Positions 8,061 to 15,863 of a stretch of 53,742 nucleotides of DNA are shown here, one piece after another; positions within the stretch are counted from its first letter, which is position 1; every line of letters begins with the position of its first letter. Below the pieces are notes generated by a model, which was given only the letters and a program-made list of their open reading frames with translations, made no database searches and was not told where the DNA came from. The position numbers were made by a program, and so were the translations under genes. This DNA is from Bacteriovorax sp. (GTDB lineage: Bacteria > Bdellovibrionota > Bacteriovoracia > Bacteriovoracales > Bacteriovoracaceae), in contig JACMPM010000004.1 in assembly GCA_014377485.1 (NCBI GenBank), forward strand, positions 1-53,742, read 5' to 3'.

Positions 8061-9047
8061 CTAAAGACCAAATCGTTTAAAGAATTTTACCATTAAAGCA
8101 GTAGCATCCGGGCCTAGTGGATCATTGTATTCAAGATCTGAGATACCGCCACTCCAATCGTGACCTAGTTTCTCGATCATATAGCGCTCGATAAAAACTA
8201 CATTTTGCTTGTTAACCGTTTTGTAGAGACTGTATCCGTAAGTATTAGTCTCTTGAACTTTTAAAACTTCATTTGCTTTGAAGTAAGAATTATCTTTAAC
8301 TCCGTTATCAAGATAGTCGTTGAAAATTTTGAATTCATCTTCAACTTGAGAAGCGTGAATTGGGCTCATCAAAGGACTGTTCATTCCTGCGAAAATAATA
8401 ATTGGCATTATAGCAGGTCTTTTAGTCACTCCTGCGGAACAGTTGTAGCCAGTTTTTGCAGCAACCGCAGAAGGCACTGAAGCTCCTTTTAAGACAACAT
8501 CTGAGAAATCAATACCAGTCGAAGAAGCGTAATATTGAGTTCCATCTTGAGACCCAAGGGCCTTAAAGCGCTCAGGGTAACAGTTTCCAAGGATGTTTAC
8601 CATTGAAGCTCCTGCACTCATGCCGGCAGCGTAAACATTTTCTTTATCCAGATTATAATCATTCGTTACCGCATCCATCATTTCAATAATGGCTGCTGGC
8701 TCACCACCGCGAAGATTATTATAAGGCATTACCCAGTTCCAACATTTAAAAGGATTATAGAGAGTATTTTGTTCTGGAAGAAGAGCTACAAATTTTTCTT
8801 TTTCTGCCCACTCTGAAATGCGAGTTCCTTTACCGAAATCTTCTGCAGATTGCTCACAACCATGAAGCATAACTACTAAATGAGCTTTATGAGTTTTTGT
8901 TAGACCAGAGGGAATATAAACTTTGTATTCTCTATAACCATTGATACTAAAGCTGCTTCCACTTTTCCAAGTACCAGCGTAGAGACTGCTCGAAGCAAGG
9001 GCCACGGTGATTAAAAAGGAAATGATTAGACTTTTATTAAAGTTCAT
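8061..9047 (-). CDS. Secreted PHB depolymerase-type esterase
   Basis: 328 residues with signal peptide (SLIISFLITVALASSSLYA). Alpha/beta hydrolase of the extracellular poly(3-hydroxybutyrate) depolymerase / LpqC group: oxyanion region VVMLHGCEQSAEDF, nucleophile Ser144 in AGMSAGAS, and a late His in GHDWSGG. The CWNW motif and the paired Cys residues are common in this group. It could degrade polyester or act as a general or feruloyl-type esterase; no separate substrate-binding domain is present. Single gene with its own upstream gap. Confidence 0.82.
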   Translation of the reverse strand: MNFNKSLIISFLITVALASSSLYAGTWKSGSSFSINGYREYKVYIPSGLTKTHKAHLVVMLHGCEQSAEDFGKGTRISEWAEKEKFVALLPEQNTLYNPFKCWNWVMPYNNLRGGEPAAIIEMMDAVTNDYNLDKENVYAAGMSAGASMVNILGNCYPERFKALGSQDGTQYYASSTGIDFSDVVLKGASVPSAVAAKTGYNCSAGVTKRPAIMPIIIFAGMNSPLMSPIHASQVEDEFKIFNDYLDNGVKDNSYFKANEVLKVQETNTYGYSLYKTVNKQNVVFIERYMIEKLGHDWSGGISDLEYNDPLGPDATALMVKFFKRFGL

Positions 9048-9245: not shown

Positions 9246-9273
9246 TTGTCAAAAACAGTTTAAGAAGGTGAAA

Positions 9274-10095
9274 ATGCAAGCATTAACGATCAAGCGAGAT
9301 TTTGGTGAATTGAGCTATTATAAAGATGCAACTGACGCAAACGCACCCGTACTTTTAGGTCTTTCTGGTTTTGGATGTACTCATTATAATTATCTCGATC
9401 TGCTTCCAGAACTGACAAAAAATTTTCAAGTTGTTCTAATTGATAATCGCGGTATGGGATCTTCGTCGAAAACAATTTCCGATTATACGCTTCGTGATGT
9501 TGCCGCCGATGCTCTGGCAGTAATGGATGAATTAAAAATTGATACATTTGGTTTGATGGGAATAAGCATGGGCGGATTTATCGCTCAGGAACTTATTAAA
9601 CTTGCTCCAGCTCGCGTGAGTGCAGTGGCATTAATGTGCACACTTTCAAGCGGTCCTGATTTTGTTAAACCAGTAGCAATAACTGAAGAAGGATTACGCC
9701 AATTTAATACTCTCGATGCCCGCATTCAAGCGGAGTATTCGACAATCGCAACAGTTCATCCAACGCTCAAAGAAAAAAATCCTACTCAGTATCAAAAGAT
9801 AGTCGATTTTAGAGTTAATTTTAAAGCTGATCTAGAAGAGAGCGTGAGACAAAATAAAGCAGCTGTGGCCTTTTTAAACGCGCCTTATGACCTATCAATC
9901 ATAAAGTGTCCGGCCCTTGCCATGGCAGGTGCTGTTGATCGTTTTGTAAGTCCAAAAAATGTTGAGGCCTTTGCCAAAAATATTAAACAATGCCAAACAG
10001 CTTTTATTCCGGAGTCTGATCATTTCTTCTTTCTGGAAAAACCAGCAGAAGTGTCTATGCAACTTAATCGATTTTTTAAGGAAGTGTTAGTATGA
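9274..10095 (+). CDS. Alpha/beta hydrolase, first gene of KSIII operon
   Basis: 273 residues from the ATG at 9274. AAGAAGG at 9262-9268 is the ribosome binding site and overlaps the alternative GTG at 9268, which decides the start. Catalytic set: Ser in MGISMGGFIAQE, Asp in AGAVDRFV, His in ESDHFFFLEKP; the oxyanion region is GLSGFGCTH rather than the usual HG. Cytoplasmic. Its stop overlaps the next start (ATGA), so translation is coupled to the KSIII-like enzyme. A thioesterase or lactone/ester hydrolase acting on the product of the pathway is a fair guess. Confidence 0.85.
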   Translation: MQALTIKRDFGELSYYKDATDANAPVLLGLSGFGCTHYNYLDLLPELTKNFQVVLIDNRGMGSSSKTISDYTLRDVAADALAVMDELKIDTFGLMGISMGGFIAQELIKLAPARVSAVALMCTLSSGPDFVKPVAITEEGLRQFNTLDARIQAEYSTIATVHPTLKEKNPTQYQKIVDFRVNFKADLEESVRQNKAAVAFLNAPYDLSIIKCPALAMAGAVDRFVSPKNVEAFAKNIKQCQTAFIPESDHFFFLEKPAEVSMQLNRFFKEVLV

Positions 10096-11120
10096 GTTCT
10101 ATAGTTTTAAAAAAAGCAGCAGTGTGGTTGCCTGAAGGTTTTGAAGACGCAGCTTTTATCGCGAGAGAATCCGGTGTTCCTGAACATGTCATAAAAACAA
10201 AAATGGGAATCATTAGAAAATGCCGTGCAGGCAGTGATGATCACCCTGGTGATATGGCCGTTCGTGCGGCCAGAAAAGTATTAAAAGACATAGATCCATT
10301 ATCAATCGATATGGTGATTTGGACTGGTTCGGAATACAAAGATTATATTGTGTGGACCGCGGGAATTTATGTTCAAAGAGAACTTGGTTTAAAAAATGCC
10401 AAGAGTTTTGATATCTCTGCTCGTTGTTCGAATAAAATCTTAGGACTTCATATTGCAAAATCATTAATGCAAACTGATCCTAAATTAAAACGCGTGCTTC
10501 TTTGTGGTGGACATAAAACGGGGGACCTTGTGAATTACAAAGATCCCAATACTCGTTTTTTATACAATCTAGCTGACGGTGGCTCGGCCATTTTATTAGA
10601 GCGTGGTGAAAATAATCCACTTCTAGATTCTTCAATCATCACAGATGGTGATTTTACAACTGATGTAATTGTACCTGCAGGTGGAACGAGACATCCGACT
10701 CGTGAGCATCCAGATGTCAGCATGACATATCTTCAAGTTCCTGATGTAGATGGAATGCGTGAACGTTTAGAAAAAAGATCAATTGTTAATTTTTTAAAAG
10801 TTATTGAAGAAGCTTCAAACAACTCGCTTAAAAAACCAATTGATTATCTGGCACTTCTACATATGAAAAAATCTGCTCATGATGCTATTTTAGCTCCACT
10901 TGAATTAAAGCAGTCGCAATCAATTTATATGGACCACTACGGTCACTTCGGAGCCCCTGATCAAGTTCTGTCTTTAGGATTGGCTGAAAAACGCGGACTC
11001 TTAAAAAAGGGTGACCACGTTATGCTGGCCTCTGCAGGAATTGGTTATATGTGGTCGGCAATGTCTCTTCGTTGGGATGAAAATACTTTTGATACAAACG
11101 ATCTAGTAGATTTAGGATAA
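10092..11120 (+). CDS. Ketoacyl synthase III-like (thiolase-fold) enzyme with altered triad
   Basis: 342 residues, normal for FabH-type enzymes. The nucleophile Cys112 is in DISARCSNKILGL and His257 in ALLHMKKSAHD. At the third catalytic position, where FabH has Asn in a GN(T/Y)S context, the sequence reads DHYGHFGAPD, giving His285. The C-terminal glycine-rich strand (LASAGIGYMWSAMSLRW) is conserved. Family members condense acyl-CoA with malonyl thioesters or transfer acyl groups; replacement of Asn is known from KSIII-type acyltransferases, so simple decarboxylative condensation should not be assumed. Located between a hydrolase and a FabG-like reductase in a five-gene operon with an acyl-CoA ligase. 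Not the housekeeping fabH, judging by context. Confidence 0.85.
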   Translation: MSSIVLKKAAVWLPEGFEDAAFIARESGVPEHVIKTKMGIIRKCRAGSDDHPGDMAVRAARKVLKDIDPLSIDMVIWTGSEYKDYIVWTAGIYVQRELGLKNAKSFDISARCSNKILGLHIAKSLMQTDPKLKRVLLCGGHKTGDLVNYKDPNTRFLYNLADGGSAILLERGENNPLLDSSIITDGDFTTDVIVPAGGTRHPTREHPDVSMTYLQVPDVDGMRERLEKRSIVNFLKVIEEASNNSLKKPIDYLALLHMKKSAHDAILAPLELKQSQSIYMDHYGHFGAPDQVLSLGLAEKRGLLKKGDHVMLASAGIGYMWSAMSLRWDENTFDTNDLVDLG

Positions 11121-11144: not shown

Positions 11145-11876
11145 ATGAAAGGCTTAACAAACAAAAGAGTTTTTATTACTGGTGCAGCTTCTGGAATTGG
11201 AAGATCAACTGCTGAGAGATTTTACGCTGAAGGAGCTGAGCTCATTCTTATCGATATGCCGACATTAGAACAAGCTGAACTTACTGCTCTTTTTCCAAAC
11301 AAAATGACTTACATCCAAGGTGACGTTACTAAAGCTGAAACACTTTTGGCCATTCAAGCTGAAGTGAACAAAGGGATTGATGTTATCGTGAACAACGCTG
11401 GTATCACTCGCGACGCTACACTTTTAAAAATGACTGACGACCAATGGGATTCAGTAATTGCAGTAAACTTAACTTCTATTTTTAAACTCTCTCGCATGGC
11501 CGCCGAAAAAATGAAAGCAGCTGGAAAGGGCGGAGTTATATTGAACGCAGCTTCAGTTGTTGCTCATTATGGAAATTTTGGTCAAGCTAACTACTCTGCG
11601 ACAAAAGCAGGAGTGATTGCAATGACAAAAACTCTTTCTAAGGAATTAGGAAAAGATCAAATCAGAGTCAATGCCGTTGCACCAGGATTTATCGCAACTC
11701 CAATGGTTGCTAAAATGCCGGAAAAAGTTCTTCAAATGATGGAAGAGAAATCTCCACTTAGAAGATTAGGGAAACCAGAAGAAATCGCTGCTGCTTATGC
11801 ATTCTTGGCAAGTGATGACGCTAAATACATCACTGGAACTACGCTGAATGTTGATGGTGGTACAATATTAGGTTAG
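11145..11876 (+). CDS. FabG-like short-chain dehydrogenase/reductase
   Basis: 243 residues, classical SDR. NAD(P)-binding TGAASGIGRS near residue 11, NNAG at about 86, catalytic Ser (NAASVVAHYG) and YSATK, and the C-terminal GTTLNVDGG typical of 3-oxoacyl reductases. Expected to reduce a 3-oxo intermediate made by the preceding KSIII-like enzyme. AAAGGAG precedes the start. The following hydrolase appears to overlap its 3' end, so it belongs to the same operon. Confidence 0.92.
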   Translation: MKGLTNKRVFITGAASGIGRSTAERFYAEGAELILIDMPTLEQAELTALFPNKMTYIQGDVTKAETLLAIQAEVNKGIDVIVNNAGITRDATLLKMTDDQWDSVIAVNLTSIFKLSRMAAEKMKAAGKGGVILNAASVVAHYGNFGQANYSATKAGVIAMTKTLSKELGKDQIRVNAVAPGFIATPMVAKMPEKVLQMMEEKSPLRRLGKPEEIAAAYAFLASDDAKYITGTTLNVDGGTILG

Positions 11877-12658
11877 ATCTTAACTATTTTATTGAAGGGA
11901 CAAAAGTTAACGAGACTGACCCCACTATTGTTTTAGTGAATGGTTTGTTTGCTGATTTAACATCGTTTGATGGAGCTGCTTTTTATTTAAAAGATAAATT
12001 TCAGCTTCTTCGCTATGACTGCAGAGGGCAGGGGAAATCTTCTAAGCCGGATGTGGTTTATAGTCTCGAAGATCATGTCCTGGATTTAAAAGAAATATTA
12101 AATGAGCTCAAATTAACCAATATTATTCTGGTGGGTCTTAGTAATGGCGGAAGAATTGTACTTGAATATGCGAGACGATTTAAAAAGGTTCATGCAGTAG
12201 TTGCTTGCGATACTTATGACAAACCTTCTCCTTTATTAAAGGCTAAACTAATCAGCTGGCTTCGTGCCCATGAAGAAAGCGGACCACTTCACCGCTTTGA
12301 TATCGCTACTCCCTGGATTTGGGGTGAAGAAGTTTTCTCTCTTAAGAGTGAATTAATATTAAGTTATAGAGACAAAGCGGGATTAACTTTAGATCATGTA
12401 GTGAAAAATTTAATTCTCGGGGCCCTTGAAACGGATATTGAAATCAGTGAAATTGATTGTCCGGTTTTATTGGTTGCGGGAGATGAAGATTTGCTAACTC
12501 CAGTTTTTTATCATGAAGCAATGCTTCTAAAATTAAAATTAGGAGAACTGGCTATTGTTAAATCTGGACACGCTTCTCTTATAGAAAAGCCGACTATCAT
12601 GGATAAAACTATTTTGCCTTGGCTTTTTAAACAGACAAATAAACAGGTACGTGAATGA
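11867..12658 (+). CDS. Alpha/beta hydrolase with non-canonical start (probably ATT)
   Basis: The first conventional start is a GTG at 11936, but beginning there removes the first strand of the fold. The reading frame is open upstream to 11855 and encodes LDLNYFIEG, then TIVLVNGLFADL, the normal N-terminus of an alpha/beta hydrolase. No ATG, GTG or TTG occurs in that extension; the best fit is ATT at 11867, overlapping the SDR stop by 10 bases and giving about 263 residues. Catalytic set: Ser in VGLSNGGR, Asp in AGDEDLLTP, His in KSGHASLIEKP. The stop overlaps the start of the ligase gene (ATGA). A frameshift from the SDR or a sequencing error near 11870 would be alternatives. Confidence 0.72.
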   Translation: MRLDLNYFIEGTKVNETDPTIVLVNGLFADLTSFDGAAFYLKDKFQLLRYDCRGQGKSSKPDVVYSLEDHVLDLKEILNELKLTNIILVGLSNGGRIVLEYARRFKKVHAVVACDTYDKPSPLLKAKLISWLRAHEESGPLHRFDIATPWIWGEEVFSLKSELILSYRDKAGLTLDHVVKNLILGALETDIEISEIDCPVLLVAGDEDLLTPVFYHEAMLLKLKLGELAIVKSGHASLIEKPTIMDKTILPWLFKQTNKQVRE

Positions 12659-14145
12659 CTAAGAGCTGGATTCATTTTTTAGAAAAAAACGCCATCGATT
12701 TTAAAAATAAATTCGCCGTGATTGATCAGGGTTCAAATAGAGAACTTACTTATGAACAATTAAATAATGAAGTGAATGCATGGGCCTCTGTTTTAAAAGA
12801 ACACGGAGTAGGTGCCGGCGATGCTATTGCCTTTTATGCTCCGACCAATTGCCTGACTCATCTAACGTTGATGCTAGCCAGTGCTAAAATTAAGGCCATG
12901 TTTGTTCCACTCAACTTTCGCCTATCATATATTGAAATAGAAGATGTTATCAACAGACTTAATCCCATTCTCTATTTTGGTGTGGGCGAGAAAATATTTA
13001 ATGTTTTGACTCCTTATCTGGATACATCTTCTGTTGAATTAAAATTAAATAAATTTAAAGATTCTGATTTTACCCAAACGGCTTCCGGCCTCGATGATAC
13101 TATTTTAATGCTCTTTACTTCTGGATCAACTGGAGTGCCCAAAGGAGTTATGTTTCACGGACAGATGCTCTTGAGCAATCAGGTTGAAACTATAAATGGT
13201 TGGGGCCTGACTTCAGATGATGTCACTTTAGTTGAAACGCCATTTTTTCATACAGGTGGATATAACGTTTTATTACTTCCACTTTTGTACTTGGGTGGAA
13301 CAGTTATTCTAGCTTCATTCTTCGATGCCGAAAATGTTTTTAGTTGTATTGAAAAATATAAGGTCTCTGTTTATTTTGGTGTTCCCACCATGTTCCAGAT
13401 GCTTTTAGAAAAGCCTCGTTTTAATGAATGTGATTTTTCTTCAATCCGTTTTTTCATTTCAGGTGGAGCCGCATGCTCGAAAACCATGATTGAAGCTTAT
13501 CAAAAAAAGAATTTAGTTTTTAAACAAGGTTTTGGTCTGACTGAAGTTGGTCCAAATTGTTTTTTATTAGATGAAAAATATGCAGTTACCAAGTCCGGAT
13601 CAATTGGACGGGCCATGCCACACTCTAAAGTTAGAGTAGTGACTAAAGAAGGACGCGATGCTGCTGTTGATGAACCGGGTGAACTTTTGATTGCAGGTCC
13701 ACACGTCTGCCTTGGCTATTATAAAAATGCAAAGGCCTTCGAAGATACATTTAAAGATGGCTATTTTTATACTGGCGATTTAGTGAAACAAGATGCAGAT
13801 GGCTTTTTTTATGTCGTTGGTCGAATCAAAGATATGTATATTTCAGGGGGGGAGAATGTTTATCCAGGCGAAGTGGAAAAACAAATTACAACTCACTCTG
13901 ATATTGCAGAGGCTGTAGTTGTGGCAGTACCGTCTGAAAAATGGGGTGAAGTTGGCTTTGCTTTTTTAAAGACTGAAAGCGAAATTAAAGTTGAAGAGTT
14001 AAGAGAATTTTTGAATCCCTTGCTCTCTAGATATAAACATCCGCATTTTATAAAATGTTTTAAAGATTTTCCACTGCTGCCAAACGGAAAGGTTGATCGT
14101 AAGACCCTCAAGGCTCAAGCGCTAAAACTTATTGAAGTAGTATAG
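12655..14145 (+). CDS. AMP-forming acyl-CoA ligase (ANL superfamily)
   Basis: 496 residues. ATP-binding loop LFTSGSTGVPKGVMF near residue 158, FGLTEVGP, YTGDLVKQD, and the C-terminal GRIKDMYISGGENVYP with the catalytic Lys in LPNGKVDRKTLK. Closest in style to medium/long-chain fatty acyl-CoA ligases of the FadD/MenE type. It likely supplies the acyl-CoA starter for the KSIII-like enzyme in the same operon. Start overlaps the previous stop by 4 bases. Confidence 0.9.
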   Translation: MTKSWIHFLEKNAIDFKNKFAVIDQGSNRELTYEQLNNEVNAWASVLKEHGVGAGDAIAFYAPTNCLTHLTLMLASAKIKAMFVPLNFRLSYIEIEDVINRLNPILYFGVGEKIFNVLTPYLDTSSVELKLNKFKDSDFTQTASGLDDTILMLFTSGSTGVPKGVMFHGQMLLSNQVETINGWGLTSDDVTLVETPFFHTGGYNVLLLPLLYLGGTVILASFFDAENVFSCIEKYKVSVYFGVPTMFQMLLEKPRFNECDFSSIRFFISGGAACSKTMIEAYQKKNLVFKQGFGLTEVGPNCFLLDEKYAVTKSGSIGRAMPHSKVRVVTKEGRDAAVDEPGELLIAGPHVCLGYYKNAKAFEDTFKDGYFYTGDLVKQDADGFFYVVGRIKDMYISGGENVYPGEVEKQITTHSDIAEAVVVAVPSEKWGEVGFAFLKTESEIKVEELREFLNPLLSRYKHPHFIKCFKDFPLLPNGKVDRKTLKAQALKLIEVV

Positions 14146-14456: not shown

Positions 14457-15863
14457 ATGGGACTAGGACAAAGACAAAAAGCTTTGGAAATAAATCTCAA
14501 CCCTAATATCTACGGCACATTTGCTGAGATAGGTGCTGGTCAAGAAGTGGCCAGGCATTTTTTTAGAGCTGGTGGTGCTGCTGGAACCATTGCAAAAAGT
14601 ATTTCTGCTTACGACATGACCATGAGCGATGCCGTTTATGGAAAAGAAGTATCCGGCCGATATGTTTGTGAAGATCGTCTTAAAAAAATGCTTGATACAG
14701 AATACGATATTTTAATTAATCGCCTCACAGATGCCAGACATAAAGACACAACATTTTTTGCTTACGCTGATACTGTTTCTGCAAAATCCTATAAGGGCAC
14801 TGGCGAGAATCACGGATGGATTGGAATTAAATTTCAACACAAGCCGAATGCCTTACCTTCTCAAGTCATTATTCACATGAGTATGCTTGATGCTGAAAAT
14901 ATTCAGCAACAAGAGGCAATAGGTCTCCTGGGAGTGAATTTAGTCTATGCTGTCTATCACGATGTTTCGGACCGTGAAAATTTTGTTTCAGGATTGATGG
15001 ATGGACTGACTACATCGCGTATGCAAATCGATATGATTCGTGTTTCAGGCGTTGCCTTCAAAGACGTGGATTCGAGATTATTGTGTTTAGAATTAGTTAA
15101 AATGAAATTATGTGAAGCCGTTATTTTTGATGTAGATGGAGAAGTTCTTCAAGCCTCTGATGTGCTTTATAAAAAAAATGTTTTAGTGGCCCGCGGAGGA
15201 TACAGACCACCTACTAATTTAAGTCTTGATATGCTGGAATGTGGTCTACGAAAATTTAAAGATTCGCTGGTAGCAGCTGAAAAAGATAATATTATTGTAA
15301 TTCCTGAAATAAGTATGTCACTACTTCTCGATCGTGGACAAGTTGATAGTGAGGATTTTTTAGCTCGTGTCGATTTGTTATCAGCACAAGGTCTTAAAGT
15401 TCTTATTTCAAATTCTGAAACTCACAGTGATTTGAATATGTTTTTTACCAAGTATGCTAAAAAGAATATTGCTTTTGTCATGGCCACCTATAATCTTGAA
15501 GAAATCCTGACTCTTTCAAAATATGGTTCTTCGAAATTTGGACTCGTTGGTTCTCTCGGGACTCTTTTAGAACCGCATACAAAATTATATATATATCCGG
15601 CCTGCGATGACGATACTCATGAAATTAAAACTATCGAGTCGATGAATATTGCACCTGACTTAACTTATTTATTAAGGTATTTAGTTGAAAACCATTATAT
15701 AGAAAATATCACAGACTATAATCCTGATGTCGTCGGGATTTGGTCGAGAAAAATTTTAAAAATGATTCAAGATGGAACAGAGGGATGGGAAAAATTTGTT
15801 CCGCCTTCTGTAGCAAAAACTGTAAAAACGAAATGTTTATTTGGAGCTAAGTGCGATTTATGA
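14457..15863 (+). CDS. Conserved protein family of unknown function
   Basis: 468 residues, cytoplasmic, no signal peptide. The N-terminus (ALEINLNPNIYGTFAEIGAGQEVARHFFRAGGAAGT) is of a type I recall as highly conserved across Bacteroidetes, proteobacteria and others, where entries carry conflicting names (for example TonB-dependent receptor or nicotinate-nucleotide adenylyltransferase). Neither fits: there is no barrel and I see no adenylyltransferase HxGH motif. A HAD-like FDVDGEV stretch near residue 225 is notable but lacks the other HAD motifs. GGAG precedes the ATG. The next gene, a secreted nuclease, overlaps its stop (ATGA), so the two are co-translated. Confidence 0.8.
   Translation: MGLGQRQKALEINLNPNIYGTFAEIGAGQEVARHFFRAGGAAGTIAKSISAYDMTMSDAVYGKEVSGRYVCEDRLKKMLDTEYDILINRLTDARHKDTTFFAYADTVSAKSYKGTGENHGWIGIKFQHKPNALPSQVIIHMSMLDAENIQQQEAIGLLGVNLVYAVYHDVSDRENFVSGLMDGLTTSRMQIDMIRVSGVAFKDVDSRLLCLELVKMKLCEAVIFDVDGEVLQASDVLYKKNVLVARGGYRPPTNLSLDMLECGLRKFKDSLVAAEKDNIIVIPEISMSLLLDRGQVDSEDFLARVDLLSAQGLKVLISNSETHSDLNMFFTKYAKKNIAFVMATYNLEEILTLSKYGSSKFGLVGSLGTLLEPHTKLYIYPACDDDTHEIKTIESMNIAPDLTYLLRYLVENHYIENITDYNPDVVGIWSRKILKMIQDGTEGWEKFVPPSVAKTVKTKCLFGAKCDL

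Follow-up and report, generated by a model that had tools for sequence, protein, structure and literature searches.

Within the 53,742-nucleotide stretch of Bacteriovorax sp. DNA analysed here (the window), the gene at 10092–11120 on the forward strand encodes a KSIII-like protein of 342 residues in which a histidine, His285, occupies the position of the catalytic Asn of FabH. Our best overall explanation, offered tentatively and with somewhat less than even confidence, is that this protein is a KSIII-fold acyltransferase that does not condense, and that it serves an operon for PHB use by thiolysis of 3-hydroxybutyrate (3HB) esters. The components of this explanation carry different weights. 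An acyltransferase-type triad in the KSIII protein is probable, and PHB/3HB catabolism as the function of the operon, including the class of substrate, is reasonably probable; thiolysis of 3HB esters as the reaction, which draws on gene context and analogy, is possible but doubtful.

The product of 10092–11120 is a member of NCBIfam NF005308 (PRK06840), a family annotated '3-oxoacyl-ACP synthase' (405.9 bits against a cut-off of 315), and it matches both Pfam domains, ACP_syn_III and ACP_syn_III_C. Against the FabH model TIGR00747 it scores 100.7 bits, below the cut-off of 292.1. Two other genes in the same genome exceed that cut-off, both retaining the Asn, and the notion that the KSIII gene is the cell's FabH was rejected on these grounds. 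A genome-wide search with the thiolase family model TIGR01930 matched five other genes and not the KSIII gene, and OleA is a weak match (5e-4); the gene make-up of the locus superficially resembles the OleABCD olefin cluster, in which OleA is partnered by an extended SDR and a beta-lactone synthetase, and the SDR here is of the short classical type. A search of viral contigs found no relative. Our literature search found no paper naming PRK06840 or describing its family, and nothing relevant emerged on a link between KSIII and 3-hydroxybutyrate. The AlphaFold model, built with 29 family sequences, is a confident FabH fold (pLDDT 91.8, pTM 0.91) that Foldseek and VIA-align group with FabH, BioZ and PqsC. 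The model aligns with BioZ at Z 38.6 and 2.1 Å over 318 residues, and with E. coli FabH (1hn9) at Z 37.4 and 2.1 Å over 312 residues. In a maximum-likelihood tree, the NF005308 family is split from FabH-type sequences with full support. Under midpoint rooting, its Bacteriovoracia and Holophagae members group together beside a Bacillota sequence; the tree suggests that the KSIII operon moved between phyla, in a direction that the midpoint root does not give.

In HMMER alignments with solved FabH structures, the FabH segment YGNTSA aligns without gaps to YGHFGA, which places His285 at the catalytic Asn position. The initial annotation had described exactly this replacement, within the motif DHYGHFGAPD of the reading frame at 10092–11120, and its frame, coordinates and motif are all correct. 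Ten other KSIII-type proteins from this and other genomes, including the genome's own two that exceed the FabH cut-off, have Asn in this column. Family sequences were collected from close genomes, a named genome collection, haloarchaeal plasmids, and sampled genomes of Bacillota and Acidobacteriota, yielding 101 sequences, of which 48 were left after an 80% identity filter; these members span Bdellovibrionota, Acidobacteriota, Bacillota and haloarchaea. His285 (codon 10944–10946, +) is present in 101/101 collected and 48/48 non-redundant sequences, so the substitution is not a matter of chance, and a local mutation or assembly error was rejected because the residue is fixed across the family. 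Asp290 (codon 10959–10961, +), Lys259 and Ser261 are likewise found in 48/48. The predicted nucleophile, Cys112 (codon 10425–10427, +), is kept in 47/48. His257 (codon 10860–10862, +), the residue nearest to the FabH His and probably a helper, is kept in 45/48, with F or K in the remaining three. It had been described at first as lying in its usual motif, which does not hold: its context is LLHMKKS, not PHQAN, and in alignments it falls one residue after the FabH His, out of register.

Some family members depart from this pattern. At loci L103, L104, L115 (10263–11327, −) and L117 (9024–10037, +), both His257 and His263 are lost (FMKxSIL), while in L080 Ser replaces Cys112 and a Cys follows two residues later; His285 and Asp290 are kept in all of these. 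L115 moreover has two family genes close together, and it is possible that the odd members, comprising the His257-less and Ser-for-Cys112 proteins and the L115 gene pair, are paired or inactive subunits. A catalytic Glu like that of HMG-CoA synthase, at position 81 (TGSEYKD), was considered and rejected, since Glu81 is unconserved in the wider family; Gly79 and Lys83 are nearly conserved there. A second unusual KSIII type was also seen in or near the clusters (L116, 1705–2703, −; L121, 7260–8240, −; L123, 2897–3877, −; L126, 6943–7947, −; L132, 14716–15738, +). This type keeps the Cys and has TQ for the FabH His motif and (G/A)YTGS for the Asn motif, and thereby lacks the two residues that partner the Cys in FabH.

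The GHxxxxD motif containing His285 is nearly identical to that of ChlB3, a KSIII-like acyltransferase (compare GHLGASDQVVAL with GHFGAPDQVLSL). ChlB3 is among the top PDB matches of a short family profile around His285, with ChlB3 GHLGASDQVVALDELVTTGELGPGDHLLM (from residue 295) lying on the family GHxxxxDQ such that His285 corresponds to His296 and Asp290 to Asp301. CerJ is matched from residue 294, its His295 falling on the His column, and the same GHxxxxD pattern occurs in NatS (7vyu) and 9z38. The triad of ChlB3 is Cys113-His296-Asp301, for which the equivalent CerJ residue is His295, and the H295N variant of CerJ is inactive, with transfer abolished (PMC9573744). A Cys-His-Asp set with the ChlB3 spacing, the Asp five residues past the His, is present in the KSIII protein as Cys112/His285/Asp290. 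Because the alignment puts His285 on His296 and Asp290 on Asp301, Cys112-His285-Asp290 is the likely triad, in which His285 is the predicted catalytic base and Asp290, absent from the initial annotation, the predicted third residue. An earlier reading of the triad as Cys-His257-His285, as in KAS I, was dropped after the ChlB3 comparison. Over its full length, the family profile scores FabH up to 104.6 bits, CerJ 56.7 and ChlB3 41.4, placing FabH closer overall; in view of this order of scores, the His-Asp triad that the family shares with CerJ and ChlB3 may be convergent.

The initial annotation had gone further, proposing that the chemistry may differ from that of FabH, probably as acyl transfer. 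This proposal has good precedent and is supported in part by the match of the triad motif to ChlB3 and CerJ, but the histidine itself is not diagnostic. In DpsC (PDB 5wgc), the doxorubicin starter enzyme, His297 matches His285, assuming a three-residue offset in the tagged chain, and DpsC, which unlike the KSIII protein has a Ser nucleophile (Ser-His-His), catalyses Claisen condensation. A His at this position therefore neither proves acyl transfer nor excludes condensation. The condensation by DpsC and the usual retention of His257 both count against the acyl-transfer reading, as do the loss of His257 in three members and the Ser of L080 in the Cys112 column.

The KSIII gene stands second in an operon on one strand, in the order ABH1, KSIII, SDR, ABH2 and acyl-CoA ligase. 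The two alpha/beta hydrolases, ABH1 (9268–10095, +) and ABH2 (11936–12658, +), both match Pfam Abhydrolase_1, and 4-base overlaps join ABH1 to the start of the KSIII gene and ABH2 to the start of the ligase gene. The SDR dehydrogenase (11145–11876, +) is FabG-like, scoring 264.5 bits against TIGR01830, below the cut-off of 297.75, and the AMP-forming acyl-CoA ligase (12655–14145, +) scores 242.7 bits against Pfam AMP-binding. This order, ABH2 included, recurs in most of 40 named loci from Bacteriovoracia, Acidobacteriota and others, and ABH1 lies directly upstream of the KSIII gene in most of them. An Asp at the end of the second strand of an SDR indicates a preference for NAD, and hence oxidation. 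The operon SDR has an Asp at the end of β-strand 2, as do all 11 aligned homologues, and is accordingly read from this residue as a putative NAD-type, oxidising enzyme. No gene in the genome passes TIGR01963, the model for a dedicated 3HB dehydrogenase, and the operon SDR is the third best match to it at 159 bits. A search of the genome for PhaC_N found no match; storage of PHB by the cell itself was therefore set aside as the source of polymer, which is probably external to the cell.

These features bear on the reading that the family's name implies, in which the KSIII protein condenses with decarboxylation, like FabH, DpsC or KAS I, through Cys-His-His, and the SDR reduces its 3-ketoacyl product within a small biosynthetic operon. 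The annotation as 3-oxoacyl-ACP synthase, the identity of the fold and top sequence matches as FabH, the example of DpsC and the FabG-like character of the SDR all accord with such a role. We nevertheless regard it as very improbable: an ACP or malonyl-loading gene was found neither in the operon nor among the annotated recurrent neighbours, the NAD-type Asp is present in 11/11 SDR homologues, the recurrent neighbours are importers, CoA-transferase and depolymerases, and the genome has its two FabH genes elsewhere. Two further reading frames of the window lie outside the operon. At 611–2677 (−), a 688-residue protein combines an AMP-binding ligase-like domain with an alpha/beta hydrolase, recalling MenE fused to MenH, and at 14457–15863 (+), a 468-residue frame matching no Pfam or NCBIfam model is conserved directly past the operon only in close relatives.

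Beyond Bacteriovoracia, the company of the KSIII gene varies around a common core. In Bacillota loci, it occurs with Liv-type ABC importers, a sigma-54 or TetR regulator, a hydrolase, and either a ligase or a CoA-transferase; in other loci, sodium symporters stand in for the ABC importer. Counting the window and other phyla, 14 loci have a CoA-transferase of the 4-hydroxybutyrate/butyrate type and 12 have a ligase, with none having both. On haloarchaeal plasmids the KSIII gene adjoins a Liv-type importer, and three of the four plasmids inspected also encode MaoC, a hydrolase and a ligase nearby. MaoC takes the place of the SDR at some loci, and is nearby in some Bacillota as well as in haloarchaea; a MaoC-type PhaJ is a known step in the mobilisation of PHA in Haloferax (PMC4823750). 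At L114, genes for 3-hydroxybutyryl-CoA dehydrogenase, acyl-CoA dehydrogenase, ETF and thiolase are found near the KSIII gene. Most locus variants share uptake, CoA activation, an ester hydrolase and the KSIII protein, and differ in how 3HB-CoA is handled afterwards, a pattern suggesting that the KSIII protein acts no later than the formation of 3HB-CoA. With an acyltransferase triad at that point, the protein may exchange the 3HB acyl group between ester and CoA. The gene context as a whole is likely catabolic, with 3-hydroxybutyrate esters and CoA as the indicated reactants.

The same neighbourhoods can be read differently, with the KSIII protein acting like a thiolase and using CoA to cleave acetoacetyl-CoA or a longer 3-ketoacyl-CoA through Cys112, His257 and His285, the last within a GHxxGA resembling that of thiolases and KAS I. 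The KSIII fold is related to that of thiolases, the gene adjoins an NAD-type SDR whose product would be acetoacetyl-CoA, and most members have His257. Against this, the genome has five ordinary thiolases elsewhere and sister species that lack the KSIII gene have equally many, L114 encodes a thiolase near its KSIII gene, the KSIII gene also occurs at loci that have MaoC in place of the SDR, and His257 is lost in three members, Asp290 in none. Thiolase-like cleavage is consequently unlikely in our assessment. The five thiolases and the lack of a PhaC_N match in the genome together mean that the cluster can be explained without a new thiolase or a storage polymer of the cell's own.

The preferred reading, an operon for the use of external PHB, draws further on the divergent gene at 8061–9047 (−). 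Its product has an N-terminal signal-peptide-like stretch and passes NF050058, the model for extracellular type 1 scl-PHA depolymerases, with 201.3 bits against a cut-off of 150, identifying it as a secreted PHB depolymerase. We counted depolymerases over the NF050058 cut-off in 57 genomes, comprising this one and its relatives. Such a gene is present in 13/14 genomes with the KSIII gene and 2/43 without (Fisher p = 6e-10), and, within the genus, in 11/11 with and 0/3 without (Fisher p = 0.003), both p values being optimistic since the genomes are related and the counts non-independent. In 10/14 genomes, the depolymerase gene lies at most about 3 kb from the KSIII gene. Matches to an unrelated depolymerase type, PhaZ7-like (NF050060), were found in 4/22 KSIII-bearing Bacillota and Acidobacteriota genomes, and are weak at 35–93 bits, far under the cut-off of 450. 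All four lie at most about 9 kb from the KSIII gene in genomes of 2.4–11.8 Mb, and three of them have a signal-peptide-like N-terminus and an AHSKG box.

The operon might instead employ the same kind of enzyme in the degradation of another esterified acid, such as hydroxycinnamate esters. PF10503-type esterases in the PDB include feruloyl esterases, the best PDB match of the ligase is a feruloyl-CoA synthetase, and Liv-type importers take varied substrates. The esterase at 8061–9047, however, matches 8daj ('Esterase, PHB depolymerase family'), its best PDB match, at 2e-51 and a feruloyl esterase at 3e-10; it also exceeds the scl-PHA depolymerase cut-off, and the CoA-transferase belongs to the C4 (hydroxybutyrate/butyrate) type. 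A different substrate is thus quite improbable.

Under the proposed PHB-use scheme, the secreted depolymerase would cut outside PHB, presumably that of prey, into 3HB and oligomers, and the oligomers would be broken down further by the hydrolases and the KSIII protein. In the KSIII protein, Asp290 would polarise His285 and His285 would activate Cys112 to accept the acyl group, as in ChlB3 and CerJ. The 3HB acyl group would then pass from the oligomer ester to Cys112 and on to CoA, yielding 3HB-CoA by the reverse of ester formation and saving the ATP of the ligase. Leftover free 3HB would be activated by the ligase, and the NAD-type SDR would convert 3HB-CoA to acetoacetyl-CoA. The predatory setting has a precedent in Bdellovibrio, where predators were ten-fold more numerous on prey that contained PHB, and where one protein, Bd2637, is an scl-PHA depolymerase (PMC4834554; an author correction changed the strain to 109J, PMC8831517). 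One argument against KSIII thiolysis is that the two operon hydrolases could cleave the oligomers already. The direction of transfer could also be the opposite: the same triad might form or edit esters, with CoA as the donor of the acyl group and the hydroxyl of an alcohol, 3HB or another, as its acceptor. The measured direction in CerJ, which esterifies a sugar hydroxyl by malonylation, favours this, but the neighbouring genes import, depolymerise and CoA-activate, with no recurrent export or assembly genes among them, and we hold ester formation to be distinctly unlikely.

Extended to the whole family, the thiolysis proposal would mean that a widespread group of KSIII-fold proteins, misannotated as 3-oxoacyl-ACP synthases, thiolyses imported 3HB-oligomer esters with CoA, a generalisation that is quite doubtful at this stage. 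If true, a '3-oxoacyl-ACP synthase' family of many genomes is misannotated and would serve to mark operons for PHB or 3-hydroxybutyrate use. Bacteria and haloarchaea would by this route turn environmental bioplastic or the storage polymer of prey into 3HB-CoA at little ATP cost, which would be of relevance to bioplastic biodegradation, to predators' use of prey storage polymer and to annotation. Exchange of ester for thioester would likewise extend the known chemistry of the KSIII fold, with the energy of the ester conserved in a manner loosely like that of sugar phosphorylases. To our knowledge, no catabolic, ester-cleaving role has been known for the KSIII fold, and this would be the first.

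Among known systems, FabH shares with the KSIII protein its fold (Z about 37, 2.1 Å) and Cys112, and differs in that its Asn is replaced by His285, its PHQAN by LLHMKKS, and Asp290 is added. The name of NF005308/PRK06840 implies the FabH reaction, which neither the residues nor the gene context of its members support. ChlB3 (PDB 7eqi) and CerJ (PDB 3s3l) are alike to the KSIII protein in having the KSIII fold, a Cys nucleophile and a His at the FabH Asn position, and the ChlB3 motif GHLGASDQ compares with GHFGAPDQ, the Asp in both following the His by five residues. These two enzymes belong to secondary metabolism (antibiotic pathways) and their known activity is confined to ester or ACP loading, whereas the KSIII family is found in catabolic clusters. 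The reaction proposed here, from PHB chain and CoA to 3HB-CoA, is that of PhaZ1 in Ralstonia eutropha, which performs CoA thiolysis of PHB (PMC3430594). In Ralstonia, however, thiolysis is the work of an intracellular PHB depolymerase, while in these operons a KSIII-fold enzyme would perform it on imported oligomers.
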